In this document: positions 3,390-12,633 of the stretch, piece by piece
Layout: every line of letters begins with the position of its first letter
How positions within the stretch are numbered: the first letter of the stretch is position 1
NCBI RefSeq assembly: GCF_002005165.1
Contig: NZ_CP019699.1
Location: forward strand, 1,736,001 to 1,800,000
DNA from: Novibacillus thermophilus
GTDB lineage: Bacteria > Bacillota > Bacilli > Thermoactinomycetales > Novibacillaceae
DNA: 64,000 nt
Reading direction: 5' to 3'
Made by a program: the position numbers and the translations under genes
The notes under the pieces: model-generated
Told to the model about the DNA's origin: nothing
Databases searched by the model: none
Seen by the model: only the letters and a program-made list of their open reading frames with translations

Positions 3390-3882
3390 GTTGTGGCTAA
3401 AGGGAGGTCTTCGGATATCAAAGGATCGGGGTGCAATCTTATATCGCCGTATCCCTTGCCGCGGCTCAGTTGGCAGGAGGAGATCCTACGGTCATTGACG
3501 TCCTTTCTCTGTGATTGCAGCAGAGGAGAGGCCGTGTTACGATAACCGACATCACACAAAAGGGAGTGTTTTCGTATCGCGACCAAACCGAATGCGACTC
3601 ATTCGATCGAAGCTGCGATGTTTCAAGCTTACGGTGTGACGTTTGAGCAGTACTGCCTCGAACTGGACACCCGAATCGAAGTCGAACGACTTCGGGAAGA
3701 AGACTATAAGCAGTCCAACGCTATCGTCAGCCAATACAACAGCCAAAGCCATAAAAGGTGAGCACCAACCGGGCTGGATCGTCATCCGGCCCGCCTTGAT
3801 GCGAAAAGGTGCAGAAACAACGCGACACATGCACGCAGGTGACCGTCTATGAAGTATCCGCGATGGCGAAATCATTTTTCGC
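3390..3882. other. Gene-poor stretch with a possible decayed small gene
   Basis: About 490 bases without a convincing gene. On the plus strand a frame runs from a non-start ATC at 3576 (first ATG at 3618) to a TGA at 3759-3761 and reads MFQAYGVTFEQYCLEL then an acidic/basic helix-like stretch ending in SQSHKR. AAAGGGAG lies ahead of the ATC codon, at the place where a start codon would be expected. A second short frame, GTG at about 3431, encodes a 27-residue Ala-rich peptide. Neither resembles a family I know. Remnants of lost genes are the simplest reading. Confidence 0.3.
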
Positions 3883-3917
3883 TTTACCTTGAATTGGGAT
3901 ATGTTATACTTTACAAT
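3883..3917 (+). promoter_or_regulatory. Promoter of the suf operon
   Basis: Two overlapping sigma-A arrangements are visible: TTGAAT (3889-3894) 17 bases before TACAAT (3912-3917), and TTTACC (3883-3888) 16 bases before TATACT (3905-3910). The operon's first gene starts 110 bases further on. Confidence 0.6.
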
Positions 3918-3931
3918 GATAATAATTCTAA
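3917..3931 (+). promoter_or_regulatory. Fur/PerR-like operator overlapping the suf promoter
   Basis: TGATAATAATTCTAA matches the 7-1-7 Fur box TGATAATNATTATCA at 12 of 14 defined positions, and starts at the last base of the -10 box. A bound repressor there would block initiation. The match is also compatible with PerR, whose box is similar, and could be chance in an A/T-rich promoter. Confidence 0.4.
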
Positions 3932-4027
3932 ATTAGAAACCACAGTGGGGACATCGGCGGCAGATGCCCGACTGTCGTCATGACGATACTACCATGACTA
4001 CACTATAGAACAATGGAGGAATGCAAC

Positions 4028-4816
4028 ATGTCAAGTGCTCCTAAATTAACGATAGAGGATTTGCACGCCTCAGTTGAAGATAAGGAAATACTCAAAGGAG
4101 TGAATCTCGAAGTCAAAGGCGGCGAAATTCACGCCATCATGGGGCCGAACGGTACGGGGAAAAGTACCCTCGCATCAGCCGTGATGGGTCATCCGATGTA
4201 CGAAGTGACAAAAGGGCGCGTCACGTTGGACGGAGAAGACCTCTTGGAGATGGAAGTAGATGAGCGGGCCAGAAAAGGGCTCTTCCTTGCTATGCAGTAC
4301 CCGAGTGAGATCAGCGGAGTGACCAACTCCGATTTCTTGCGCAGCGCCATCAACGCGAAACGCGGAGAGGGTAACGAGATTTCCATCATGAAATTCATCC
4401 GCCAACTGGATGAAAAGATGGAGATGTTAAACATAGACCAGTCGTTTGCCGAACGCTATTTAAACGAAGGGTTCTCAGGCGGTGAGAAGAAGCGGAACGA
4501 AATACTGCAGATGATGATGTTGGAACCGCGCATCGCCATATTGGACGAGATCGACTCGGGTTTGGACATCGACGCTCTGAAGGTCGTGGCCAAAGGTGTC
4601 AACTCCATGCGTGATCCGAATTTGGGCGTGCTCATCATCACCCACTACCAGCGGCTGCTCAACTACATTGAACCAGACTTCGTTCACGTCATGATGCAAG
4701 GTCGCATTGTGCGTTCAGGCGGGCCGGAGCTGGCACAGCGTCTGGAGGCGGAAGGGTACGAATGGATTAAGGCGGAGTTGGGTATTCAAGACGAAACTGT
4801 GGGCCAAGAAGCTTAA
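4028..4816 (+). CDS. sufC: Fe-S cluster assembly ATPase SufC
   Basis: Cytoplasmic ABC-type ATPase that energises the SufBCD scaffold. The 262-residue protein has Walker A GPNGTGKST (39-47), the SufC-type signature FSGGEKKRNE, and Walker B with the characteristic ILDEIDSGLDIDAL. ATG 4028 follows TGGAGGA by eight bases; an in-frame upstream codon at 4013 would overlap that ribosome site. First gene of sufCDSUB, whose order is the one usual in Firmicutes. Confidence 0.97.
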   Translation: MSSAPKLTIEDLHASVEDKEILKGVNLEVKGGEIHAIMGPNGTGKSTLASAVMGHPMYEVTKGRVTLDGEDLLEMEVDERARKGLFLAMQYPSEISGVTNSDFLRSAINAKRGEGNEISIMKFIRQLDEKMEMLNIDQSFAERYLNEGFSGGEKKRNEILQMMMLEPRIAILDEIDSGLDIDALKVVAKGVNSMRDPNLGVLIITHYQRLLNYIEPDFVHVMMQGRIVRSGGPELAQRLEAEGYEWIKAELGIQDETVGQEA

Positions 4817-4835
4817 GCGGGGAGGAAGCGAGAAC

Positions 4836-7789
<2,954 letters not shown>

Positions 7790-9412: not shown

Positions 9413-11289
9413 GTACGCCCAGCATGGGCGTCATCTATAGGGTGAAAGTCCCGAACGGGGGCTGGCGAGCGCCTACCGTAGTCAAAGGCAAGGGTGTCCG
9501 TCGCGAGGCGGAATCTGAAGGAAGCCGGAGACAAACGCACGGGTCAAGGTACACGAACTGGATTTGAGGCAGGATTAGTCGGATGAGTTGCCAGAACACA
9601 ACGAAATCCAAAGCCGCCAAGGGCTCATCCTGTAAACTCCAGTGATCGCGGGCGGAAAGATGACGCTCTTATCTGGGGAGGCCTGCGGAACACGCGAAGT
9701 AACATCGTAACCGCAGTCGAGAGGCTGCGCTGAATCCGCAGGAGTCAGCAGAGGCCATAGTACGCAAGTACGGGGCGCCGGAAAGCGGAAGGGCCGAACC
9801 GAAAGGAGAGAGGAAACCGATGCGTTCGAGAGAAGAGCGCAGACAGCAGAATATCCCGCAAGGGAGCTGCCAACAGAGAGCAGCGGTGAAGCCGCGAGGG
9901 TATGTTGGAGCGCCGAGCTCTTCTCCGGCACAAGTCGCCCCTTCCTCTCGCGAAGACCATAACGACTTGCTGGACAGGATGCTTGAGAGAGAAAATCTCT
10001 TGCTCGCATACAAGCGAGTGGTCCGAAACGGAGGAGCGCCCGGAGTGGACGGAGTAACGGTAGCTGAACTGCAGGCTTACCTGAACACACACTGGGCACA
10101 GGTGAAAGCAGAGCTCCTAGCGGGAACCTACAAACCCGCGCCAGTCAAACGGGTGGAAATCCCCAAACCTGGAGGCGGCGTGAGGCTTCTAGGGATCCCG
10201 ACCGCGATGGACCGGCTCCTCCAGCAAGCCCTGCTGCAAGTGATGCATCCGATCTTCGATGCTCACTTCTCATGGGACAGCTACGGCTTCCGACCAGGGA
10301 AGCGGGCCCATGATGCGGTCCTTCAAGCCCAGCGCTATATCCAGAGTGGATACAGATGGGTTGTGGACTTGGACTTAGAGAAGTGCTTTGACCGAGTAAA
10401 CCACGACATGCTCATGGCGAGGGTAGCAAGAAGGGTGAAGGACAAGCGAGACCTGAAACTCATCCGGGCGTACCTCAACGCCGGAGTCATGGTCAACGGA
10501 GTATGCCAACGGACAGAGGAAGGGACGCCGCAAGGCGGACCGCTGAGTCCGCTTCTGGCCAACATCTTGTTGGACGACCTGGACAAAGAACGAAAGAAAC
10601 GCGGGTTGCAATTCGCACGTTATGCGGACGATTGTAACATCTTTGTCGCTAGCAAGCGCGCAGGGGAACGCGTCATGGAATCGGTAATTCGCTTTGTAGA
10701 GGGAAAGCTGAAACTGAAAGTGAAGCGAGACAAAAGTGCGGTAGACCGCCCCTGGAACCGGAAATTCCTAGGGTTCAGTTTTCTGCCGGACAAACAAGCA
10801 ACGATTCGGTTAGCCCCGAAGACCATCTCCCGATTCAAAGATAGAATACGTGAGATGACGAGTCGTTCACGGGCGATCTCCATGGAAGAGCGAATTAAAC
10901 GGCTCAACCGCTACATCATCGGTTGGGTCAGGTACTTTCGACTGGCATCGATGAAGACGCACTGTGAAAGATTCGACCAATGGATTCGGCGCAGACTGAG
11001 GATGTGCCTATGGAAACAATGGAAACGGGTCAGAACCCGTCTTCGTGAACTTAGGGCCCTTGGCGTACCAGAATGGGCCTGCTTCATGATGGCCAATTCC
11101 CGCCGAGGACCATGGGAAATGTCCCGGAACACAAACAATGCCCTTCCGACTTCCTACTGGGAAGCGAAAGGGCTGAAGAGTATGCTTTTTCGTTATATGG
11201 AACTTCGTCAACCTTTTGGAACCGCCTAGTGCGGACCCGCATGCTAGGTGGTGTGAGAGGACGGGGGCTAGCCGCCCCTCCTACTCGAT
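9413..11289 (+). mobile_element. Group IIC intron, full length
   Basis: The 5' part (from GTACGCCC at 9413) is a structured, non-coding 400-base region with the GGGTGAAAGTCCCGAACGGG and AAGGGTGTCCGTCGCGAGGC elements typical of these introns. The maturase gene follows. At 11221-11252 the sequence folds as domain V (ACCGCCTAGTGC paired with GCATGCTAGGTGGT) and at about 11257-11282 as domain VI (GAGGACGGGGGC/GCCGCCCCTC), ending in CTACTCGAT, where AT gives the usual AY 3' end. The maturase resembles the group IIC class of thermophilic Bacilli. Insertion directly behind a terminator stem supports class C. Exact ends are inferred from consensus, with an error of a few bases. Confidence 0.88.
9820..11229 (+). 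CDS. ltrA: Group II intron reverse transcriptase/maturase
   Basis: Intron-encoded protein that helps the intron RNA to splice and copies it into new DNA sites. The 469-residue protein shows RT blocks in order: GGAPGVDGVT (71-80), GGVRLLGIPT (119-128), SYGFRPGK (154-161), VDLDLEKCFDRVNH (182-195), EEGTPQGGPLSPLLANI (233-249) and the catalytic YADD (268-271), then the thumb/maturase X domain. No HNH endonuclease domain follows, as in class C. ATG 9820 follows AAAGGAGAG. The stop codon overlaps domain V. The frame is intact, so the element could be active. Confidence 0.95.
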   Translation: MRSREERRQQNIPQGSCQQRAAVKPRGYVGAPSSSPAQVAPSSREDHNDLLDRMLERENLLLAYKRVVRNGGAPGVDGVTVAELQAYLNTHWAQVKAELLAGTYKPAPVKRVEIPKPGGGVRLLGIPTAMDRLLQQALLQVMHPIFDAHFSWDSYGFRPGKRAHDAVLQAQRYIQSGYRWVVDLDLEKCFDRVNHDMLMARVARRVKDKRDLKLIRAYLNAGVMVNGVCQRTEEGTPQGGPLSPLLANILLDDLDKERKKRGLQFARYADDCNIFVASKRAGERVMESVIRFVEGKLKLKVKRDKSAVDRPWNRKFLGFSFLPDKQATIRLAPKTISRFKDRIREMTSRSRAISMEERIKRLNRYIIGWVRYFRLASMKTHCERFDQWIRRRLRMCLWKQWKRVRTRLRELRALGVPEWACFMMANSRRGPWEMSRNTNNALPTSYWEAKGLKSMLFRYMELRQPFGTA

Positions 11290-11414: not shown

Positions 11415-11441
11415 TAAAATGGATTGTGATTGTGCCGATAT
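11415..11441 (+). promoter_or_regulatory. Sigma-D (flagellar) promoter of csrA-flagellin
   Basis: TAAA (11415-11418) and GCCGATAT (11434-11441) are separated by 15 bases, an exact match to the sigma-D consensus of Bacillus. It lies 33 bases upstream of csrA and has no competing sigma-A match nearby. Confidence 0.85.
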
Positions 11442-11473
11442 ATATAACAGATCGTCAGGGAGGATGACGGAGC

Positions 11474-11656
11474 ATGCTCGTGATTAGTCGCAAGCCAAGC
11501 GAAGGCATTATCATCCATGACCGGATTCGGATCCGAGTGCAGAAGCGAAGCGGTCGCTTTCAACTGGCCATTGAAGCGCCGGAAGACGTAAAAGTCTTGC
11601 GGGAGGAATTGTACGAGGGTGAATTCAAGTCACCGTGTGAGCTAAATGCCACGTGA
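11474..11656 (+). CDS. csrA: Short carbon storage regulator CsrA
   Basis: RNA-binding translational regulator. The 60-residue protein keeps the CsrA core: MLVISRKPSEGI at the start (Leu4/Arg6 region), a central beta sheet IRVQ...FQLAIEAPEDV and VLREELYE with the RNA-contacting Arg near residue 44. It is shorter than the usual 70-75 residues and diverged in the middle strands. In Bacillus CsrA represses flagellin translation by covering its ribosome site. Here it lies directly upstream of the flagellin gene and shares its sigma-D promoter. ATG 11474 follows CAGGGAGGATGACGGAGC. Confidence 0.85.
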   Translation: MLVISRKPSEGIIIHDRIRIRVQKRSGRFQLAIEAPEDVKVLREELYEGEFKSPCELNAT

Positions 11657-11664
11657 TGGATTGG

Positions 11665-11693
11665 ATCAATATCCCTGTCAAAGGGTTATTGAT
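11665..11693 (+). other. Hairpin in the csrA-flagellin intercistronic region
   Basis: ATCAATATCCCT pairs with AGGGTTATTGAT (one T-T mismatch) around GTCAA. No T-run follows, so it is not a normal terminator. It may be a processing or stability element between csrA and the flagellin message. Confidence 0.5.
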
Positions 11694-11699
11694 AACACA

Positions 11700-11720
11700 G
11701 AGTTGCCATGGAAGCGGCTC
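11700..11720 (+). promoter_or_regulatory. Probable CsrA-binding hairpin in the flagellin leader
   Basis: GAGTTGC and GCGGCTC form a seven-pair stem (two G-U pairs) that presents CATGGAA as the loop, with GGA exposed as in known CsrA targets. A second GGA lies in the ribosome site TTGGAGGGA (11731-11739). In Bacillus the hag leader has the same two-site plan. Confidence 0.55.
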
Positions 11721-11747
11721 TGAAAAAAATTTTGGAGGGATTCCCAC

Positions 11748-12584
11748 ATGATTATCAACCACAACATTATGGCGTTGAACACCCACAGACAGTTGGCGTT
11801 CAACAACACCAACGTCCAGAAGTCAATGGAGAAACTGTCGTCTGGACTTCGCATCAACCGTGCCGGAGACGACGCGGCAGGGCTCGCCATCTCCGAGAAG
11901 ATGCGGGCTCAAATTCGCGGTCTCAACATGGCGTCGAAAAACGCCCAGGACGGCATCTCGCTCATTCAGACGGCAGAAGGAGCGTTGAATGAGTCTCATG
12001 CCATCCTGCAGCGGATGCGGGAACTGGCCGTTCAAGCGGCAAACGACACGAATACGGATGCGGACCGTGCCGAACTGCAAAAAGAAGTGGATCAACTGGC
12101 ACAAGAATTGACCCGTATTGCCGAAACGACTGAGTTTAACACACAAAAACTGCTGGATGGCAACTTCACTGGTACATTCCACATTGGAGCCAACGAAGGA
12201 CAAAATATCACTTTGACAATTGATGCTATGGATGCTGTGACATTAGGTGTGGGTACGGACGATGGAAGTGGTAGTATCACTGGAATCGATATTTCTACAC
12301 AAACAGCAGCCGATAGCGCCATAACGACGATCAACGATGCCATTGAACAAGTATCCGCTCAACGCGCGAATCTCGGGGCCGTGCAAAACCGTCTGGAGCA
12401 CACCATCAACAACCTCGGCACCTCGTCTGAAAACTTGACCGCGGCCGAATCCCGCATCCGCGACGTCGACATGGCGAAAGAAATGATGGAGTTCACGAAG
12501 AACAACATCCTGGCGCAAGCCGCAAATGCCATGCTGGCCCAAGCCAACCAACAACCGCAACAAGTGTTGCAACTGTTGCGTTAA
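11748..12584 (+). CDS. hag: Flagellin
   Basis: Structural subunit of the flagellar filament, exported by the flagellar type III apparatus. At 278 residues it is a short flagellin: conserved D0/D1 N-terminus (IINHNIMALNTHRQL to MRELAVQAANDTN), a reduced variable centre of about 70 residues, and the conserved C-terminus (LGAVQNRLEHTINNL to AQANQQPQQVLQLLR). ATG 11748 follows TTGGAGGGA by eight bases. No other flagellar gene (for example fliW, fliD) is in the window. Expression should depend on the sigma-D promoter ahead of csrA and on CsrA repression of translation. Confidence 0.96.
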   Translation: MIINHNIMALNTHRQLAFNNTNVQKSMEKLSSGLRINRAGDDAAGLAISEKMRAQIRGLNMASKNAQDGISLIQTAEGALNESHAILQRMRELAVQAANDTNTDADRAELQKEVDQLAQELTRIAETTEFNTQKLLDGNFTGTFHIGANEGQNITLTIDAMDAVTLGVGTDDGSGSITGIDISTQTAADSAITTINDAIEQVSAQRANLGAVQNRLEHTINNLGTSSENLTAAESRIRDVDMAKEMMEFTKNNILAQAANAMLAQANQQPQQVLQLLR

Positions 12585-12596
12585 GACCTGTACGAC

Positions 12597-12633
12597 AAAA
12601 GCGGGGGTTTTGGTATCTGCCCCGCTTTTTTGT
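12597..12633 (+). terminator. Terminator after flagellin
   Basis: AAAAGCGGGG pairs with CCCCGCTTTTTT around GTTTTGGTATCTG. Confidence 0.88.

Follow-up and report, generated by a model that had tools for sequence, protein, structure and literature searches.

A short csrA and a flagellin gene behind a predicted sigma-D promoter in Novibacillus thermophilus share the layout of phage- and plasmid-borne csrA-flagellin pairs of Bacilli

We analyzed a 64-kb window of the Novibacillus thermophilus chromosome (positions 1,736,001 to 1,800,000 of NZ_CP019699.1), to which all coordinates refer unless they carry a contig or locus label. Inspection of the plus strand reveals a sigma-D promoter motif, TAAA-N15-GCCGATAT, that matches the pattern with 0 mismatches (11415..11441), a csrA gene encoding 60 aa (csrA2, 11474..11656), and a flagellin gene encoding 278 aa (hag1, 11748..12584). 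The unit is stand-alone, as an earlier note on this DNA had proposed, in that a short csrA lies directly before a flagellin gene with no fliW beside it. The hag1 product carries the Pfam domains Flagellin_N and Flagellin_C and scores 386 bits against the NCBIfam model for flagellin Hag (cut-off 352). The csrA2-hag1 gap of 91 nt contains two stem-loops, of which the first (11665..11693, plus strand) has neither GGA in its loop nor a trailing T run, and the second is the GGA-loop hairpin of the hag1 leader described below. A terminator-like inverted repeat, AAAAGCGGGG...CCCCGCTTTTTT, was read by eye from the sequence 3' of hag1 (12596..12632, plus strand).

The unit is flanked by the suf operon and a DUF72 (yunF-like) gene and lies downstream of a group II intron, the recognized parts of which span 9497..11229 (plus strand). 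The intron is a neighbor outside the unit and includes RNA motifs at 9497-9794 and a reverse transcriptase/maturase at 9820-11229, the frame of which stops 186 bases upstream of the sigma-D promoter. The one sister genus compared has the same suf and DUF72 flanks with different genes between them and no csrA, an arrangement that fits a variable site and falls short of proof for an insertion. No phage or plasmid Pfam domains were found in 10 neighboring proteins spanning 4.7-19.5 kb of the window; the copy thus has no mobile-element setting there, which is seen for some members of this type and is not required of them. Elsewhere in the window, a SAM riboswitch is present at 64-173.

The promoter motif is the sole exact match within the window, where 0.02 would be expected, and agrees with the earlier claim of an exact sigma-D promoter. 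A whole-genome scan returned two further exact matches, both copies of one sequence, and the reversed-pattern control returned 3. The weight of the promoter assignment therefore comes from its position 5' of csrA-hag and not from genome-wide rarity. Because the genome also encodes a FliA-type sigma factor above the curated cut-off, together with flgM, use of this promoter is plausible; transcription would start just beyond it and produce a single message for csrA2 and hag1.

CsrA2 is a member of the broad CsrA family that falls outside the curated NCBIfam equivalog. It scores 56.2 bits against Pfam CsrA, above the gathering score of 27, and 47.4 bits against the NCBIfam csrA equivalog, below the cut-off of 70.1, with CsrA1 from the same genome (87 aa) reaching 81.7. 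The size of only 60 residues, emphasized previously, is correct as a length and is normal for a CsrA, the E. coli protein having 61 residues (PMC7829508, excerpts); CsrA2 is short only relative to FliW-type CsrAs, whose 52 canonical ORFs span 69-120 aa, some lengthened by mechanical start choice. Despite its divergence, CsrA2 retains the invariant core residues Arg6 and Arg43 (Arg44 in E. coli numbering), with Leu4 replaced by Ile. We take Arg6 and Arg44 to be single positions of the RNA-binding core of CsrA. Excerpts of PMC7829508 locate this core in strands 1 and 5, list Val/Ile51 and Asn55 as the FliW-contact residues, and describe the CsrAs of C. jejuni and B. subtilis as needing Asn55 to bind FliW. 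At places 51 and 55 CsrA2 carries Glu and Pro, in a chain long enough to reach place 55, and CsrA1 carries Val51 and Asn55. In the CsrA alignment, Asn55 is present in 45/48 canonical rows versus 1/19 stand-alone rows, and 25-43 residues lie beyond Arg44 in canonical proteins versus 6-25 in stand-alone ones. From the proline at place 55 and the near absence of Asn55 among stand-alone rows, we strongly infer that CsrA2 would be blind to FliW.

The hag1 leader contains a 9-bp hairpin, CAGAGUUGC-CAUGGAA-GCGGCUCUG (11698..11722, plus strand), followed by a ribosome site with a second GGA (11734..11739, plus strand), and both elements are as the earlier note described them. When scored as a GGA-loop hairpin, the structure has an energy of -12.6 kcal/mol, which is equalled by 0/200 shuffles. 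Total fold energy is less striking for 11690-11750 (z -1.77, 12/200 shuffles equally good) and stronger for the longer segment 11657-11770 (z -3.06, 0/200), and the Rfam scan yielded no model matching these leaders. We rejected the idea that the hairpin itself is special, as one at p <=0.05 is present in 43/52 canonical leaders and in 20/29 flagellin leaders that have no csrA within 1.5 kb. That is to say, the hag-type GGA leader hairpin is ordinary in Bacilli.

The genome search for further flagellins identified hag2 (C1:745.8 kb), which has no adjoining csrA. The two genes are 91% identical over 501 bp, from the leader hairpin loop into the gene, and 85% identical over 306 bp at the 3' end. 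Both leaders form GGA-loop hairpins, that of hag2 at -13.5 kcal/mol, and they do so with different 5' arms that still pair, so that the pair provides a small case of compensating change. A LAGLIDADG endonuclease gene is located immediately 3' of hag2 (L007 6944-7318).

The hag2 leader bears on two alternative accounts of csrA2. CsrA2 might be a decaying or inactive passenger, with the hag hairpin answering only to chromosomal CsrA1-FliW; the presence of the hairpin in both flagellin leaders, including that of a gene without csrA, would agree with this, as would the divergence of CsrA2 and its score under the NCBIfam csrA cut-off. The csrA2 reading frame is nevertheless open, with a promoter and a ribosome site in place, and its product retains the invariant residues of the core, Arg6 and Arg43 among them; we consider a passenger role improbable. 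CsrA2 might instead regulate chiefly in trans, with other mRNAs as its targets and little effect on the message that encodes it. The hag2 mRNA, which has a GGA leader hairpin and lacks a csrA of its own, could be one such target; an equally good hairpin is nevertheless located on hag1, in the same message as csrA2, and we regard action chiefly in trans as very improbable.

A search of the rest of the genome refines the earlier statement that fliW is absent. It holds for the locus, where no fliW lies beside csrA2, and fails genome-wide, since one fliW is present 1.6 Mb away (C1:3357287-3357646), directly upstream of csrA1 and, on locus L008, at 10252-10713 of the minus strand. The cluster around them includes flgM, flgK, flaG, fliD and fliS, along with a DUF6470 gene and a gene assigned as FlgL-like from its position. 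The contrast previously drawn with the larger csrA-fliW cluster of Bacillus is accordingly mistaken in one respect, as this genome has the usual fliW-csrA1 flagellar cluster and csrA located close upstream of hag is the common order. The interval between csrA1 and flaG contains no hag; it is occupied by two opposite-strand genes, one of them a cytidylyltransferase gene (L008 8123-9882). This arrangement raises the alternative that the window unit is a displaced part of an ordinary fliW-csrA-hag cluster, in which csrA and hag were copied or moved jointly, the CsrA2 tail was lost later and CsrA action remains of the ordinary kind. The hag gene missing from its expected place and the canonical order of csrA before hag would both fit such a displacement, which is weighed further below against promoter position and CsrA kinship.

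To place the unit among its relatives, we compared stand-alone and canonical csrA-hag units in Bacilli. Among the best 80 flagellin loci from named genomes, csrA is present within the fetched stretch in 58, and fliW in 55 of those 58. The remaining three, from Scopulibacillus darangshiensis (L038), Oceanobacillus massiliensis (L047) and Paenibacillus methanolicus (L078), each have a short csrA upstream of flagellin. A search with the stand-alone CsrA alignment matched 232/398 Bacilli genomes at E <=0.001. The five top-scoring csrA loci (>=74.9 bits; in 4 of the 398 genomes, including the present one) have no adjoining fliW, and in all of the next 26 fetched loci fliW adjoins. In two of these four genomes, G331 and G315, a canonical fliW-csrA-hag cluster is located ~2-3 kb away from the unit, which is therefore stand-alone only locally. 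The stand-alone csrA-flagellin type is rare and scattered, as expected of mobile cargo.

Promoter placement separates the two types. A sigma-D box with <=1 mismatch lies upstream of csrA in 11/17 non-redundant stand-alone units versus 0/52 canonical units, and in the csrA-hag gap in 1/17 versus 21/52. These counts are to be read with the composition of the sets in mind: most canonical units were drawn from the 80 top flagellin matches rather than sampled at random, and the starts of their ORFs were set mechanically; L078 and L226 are manual additions to the stand-alone set; and the near-copies L186, L187, L190 and L191, as well as repeated retrievals of a single contig, are not counted among the 17. 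The six stand-alone units that have no good sigma-D box before csrA are L152, L153, L173, L178, L189 and L078. Seven units have a csrA-flagellin gap of <=30 nt and no strong flagellin hairpin, and translation of their two genes is probably coupled. The promoter position of the window unit thus differs from that of canonical units, which argues against its being a displaced piece of one.

The csrA2 leader offers a second, weaker candidate for CsrA binding. A hairpin, CGUCA-GGGAGGA-UGACG (11453..11469, plus strand), encloses the csrA2 ribosome site at -5.8 kcal/mol and, when scored as a GGA-loop hairpin, yields p 0.02 and 0.046 versus shuffles in two runs. By total energy 26/200 shuffles are equally good, and the hairpin is missing from the minimum-energy fold of 11448-11580, where other pairing replaces it. 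This putative CsrA site is the least certain part of the unit. Across units, a GGA hairpin at p <=0.05 lies upstream of csrA in 7/17 stand-alone versus 5/52 canonical cases (Fisher exact 0.0065), leaving 10/17 stand-alone units above p 0.05, and combined p-values, which treat related units as independent, are 5e-6 for stand-alone and 0.996 for canonical units. Part of this contrast arises because csrA is first in its unit in the stand-alone type, whereas the region used as the canonical control is part of the fliW gene and codes for protein. The hairpin encloses the ribosome site in the window unit and in L038, L047, L184, L160 and L226, and is positioned upstream of it in L174, L186, L187 and L188.

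Pairs of the same layout are present on plasmids and phages. A Paenibacillus urinalis plasmid has csrA and flagellin adjacent, with a sigma-D box at 1 mismatch and a strong GGA hairpin before flagellin. Among the plasmid records examined from the matches listed, csrA directly precedes flagellin in 6/7, the exception being a Jeotgalibacillus plasmid, and 4 of the 6 positive plasmids (3 B. licheniformis, 1 B. halotolerans) are the same replicon cluster and not independent. The pair lies on 200-kb plasmids in B. licheniformis and B. halotolerans; the 205-kb element of B. licheniformis SCDB 14 encodes a virion structural protein and a baseplate protein, and is therefore probably a phage-plasmid. 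With CsrA2 as a tblastn query, we obtained no phage record and one plasmid. Two of the 12 phage records listed were examined, of which Bacillus phage EZ-2018a, whose unit was reached via its flagellin, has the pair and a faecal clone does not.

Flagellin queries against IMG/VR matched 9 distinct contigs, 7 of which have csrA before flagellin; L172 lacks it, and L177 is truncated upstream. Neighbors of the pair on viral contigs include an endolysin gene (L171) and integrase and exonuclease genes (L184), and in L175 the csrA-flagellin pair (3788-7511) lies directly before genes for the small and large terminase subunits. A general link between phage csrA and flagellin was considered and rejected, as flagellin is present in the fetched stretch at 1/17 csrA-bearing viral loci (L160, the contig of L176).

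Phylogenetic analysis of CsrA was used to address whether CsrA2 is kin to these mobile copies. In a tree of 68 CsrAs, from which L190 was omitted, a single clade (98/95) unites 17/19 stand-alone proteins, among them CsrA2, and excludes all 48 canonical proteins. With tails cut and the two long-branched rows L173 and L188 dropped, 15/17 stand-alone proteins group together (99/88). The terminal branch of CsrA2 is long (2.89) and its composition is unusual, and the trees rest on few columns; for the tail-cut tree the program warned of possible long-branch attraction where CsrA2 joins the plasmid row L151. An AU test that set 14 stand-alone rows against the canonical rows plus the window row did not separate its hypotheses, because the window row may be the deepest branch. 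Two members lie outside the stand-alone clade, L189 (a Rossellomorea plasmid) and L178, and these are probably displaced ordinary genes.

For CsrA2 itself, displacement from a canonical cluster gains from an AU test in which CsrA1 and CsrA2 as sisters are not rejected (p 0.25). It loses from the grouping of CsrA2 with the stand-alone proteins, to the closest of which it is 49-51% identical, against 33% to CsrA1 (or 41% over 49 residues). We consider CsrA2 likely, short of proof, to be kin to the stand-alone phage and plasmid CsrAs, and we regard displacement as rather unlikely. The window unit is unusual in that its promoter lies upstream of csrA and not in the csrA-hag gap, CsrA2 lacks the FliW-contact residues, and the pair is likely related to those on phages and plasmids.

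Taken with moderate confidence, the unit would be a chromosomal member of a recurrent, portable, sigma-D-driven cassette of a FliW-blind csrA and a flagellin gene, which may have arrived by transfer and in which CsrA2 limits both itself and flagellin. Sigma-D would direct the single csrA2-hag1 message, from which CsrA2 would be translated first, a protein that retains the RNA-binding core and lacks the residues that let FliW switch off ordinary CsrA. CsrA2 would then bind two GGA hairpins, one covering the csrA2 ribosome site and one upstream of hag1, and would thereby hold down its own synthesis and that of flagellin. As the FliW contact is missing, the level of this brake would be set by CsrA2 feedback and not by free flagellin. 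The compact feedback module proposed earlier, with CsrA made from the message it blocks, is consistent with the sequence as far as it goes, and gains a little from the GGA hairpin in the csrA2 leader.

In B. subtilis, homeostasis by fliW-csrA-hag involves CsrA sites in the hag leader, one of them over the ribosome site (PMC7652899, PMC7829508, both in excerpt), and the FliW-CsrA-Hag system is summarized in the passages of PMC7652899. The window unit resembles it in combining CsrA with flagellin and in having a GGA hairpin and a ribosome-site GGA in the hag leader, and canonical loci likewise have csrA near hag. In contrast to B. subtilis, the window unit has no adjoining fliW, a CsrA without FliW-contact residues, a promoter before csrA instead of in the csrA-hag gap, and a possible CsrA site in the csrA leader.

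The nearest published system appears to be the csrA-fliC-tldR loci of gut commensals, which, in the passages of PMC13418256, have a CsrA motif in a stem-loop of the fliC 5' UTR. The CsrA of such a locus, when expressed in E. coli, was enriched on the fliC 5' UTR by RIP-seq (PMC13418256, same passages). Both systems link csrA to flagellin and have a CsrA motif in a flagellin leader stem-loop, with RIP-seq support in the published case. They differ in that no tldR/tnpB-like Pfam domain was found in the maturase or in 10 further neighboring proteins of the window, whereas the TldRs of PMC13418256, as excerpted, target alternative flagellin genes in another host group. The Enterobacter flagellin-remodelling prophages (FR-phi) described in excerpts of PMC13418256 pair a phage flagellin with a regulator, as do the phage-borne relatives of the window unit; the regulator there is RNA-guided TldR rather than CsrA, and the window copy lies outside a prophage. 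Plasmid and phage csrA genes are reported in PMC7366521, with Pseudomonas as the commonest plasmid host. They share with the present pairs the role of csrA as mobile-element cargo, and differ in that the excerpts of PMC7366521 mention neither a linked flagellin nor sigma-D control. Among the matches listed from the open-licence PMC literature (titles, abstract starts and passages), we found neither a csrA-flagellin pair borne by a Bacillus phage or plasmid nor a csrA-hag unit of Bacilli that lacks FliW.

In B. subtilis and Campylobacter, the link between CsrA and flagellin levels is provided by FliW. A recurrent pair that has no FliW contact, has its promoter before csrA and is carried by phages makes it testable whether CsrA can act as a brake on flagellin through self-feedback alone, and whether phages use CsrA to change the host filament. 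We offer, as a tentative and rather doubtful proposal, that the phages and plasmids of Bacilli disseminate a flagellin-swap cassette, in which a FliW-blind CsrA would silence the resident flagellin mRNA at its conserved hairpin while setting its own level by feedback, and the linked flagellin would coat the cell with the filament of the element. The window unit would be a settled chromosomal descendant that now brakes itself. This proposal concerns the phage copies and can be held together with the portable-cassette explanation of the window unit. Under this proposal, the short CsrA on its own should reduce resident Hag, and the cassette, if the proposal is true, would be a protein-based counterpart of the RNA-guided TldR flagellin switch.

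Several observations were made on the way through the compared loci. The pattern GATAT-N10-TCRTCARGGAGGATGA, searched with <=3 mismatches, matched 116/398 Bacilli genomes and was rejected, most matches appearing by eye to be chance; one match, in G386, is a further csrA-flagellin unit. A contig filed as Arthrobacter (L049) contains fliW, csrA and a Bacilli-like flagellin gene, and is perhaps from a contaminated assembly. In G331, a group I intron lies between two pieces of a flagellin gene (L092 2182-2531, minus strand), and in G315 a tandem of two distinct short csrA genes has a flagellin gene on either side and follows the canonical fliW-csrA-hag cluster of that genome (L153 8749-9201). Candidate CsrA-controlled terminators were noted by eye at L078 6323-6518, in the csrA-flagellin gap of L092/L152 and around two csrA genes in L093. 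The 3' strand of these candidates, CUCAUCC, leads into a T run, and the 5' strand (for example ACUCAAGGAUGAGU, which forms a small hairpin with an AGGA loop) could be held by CsrA instead.
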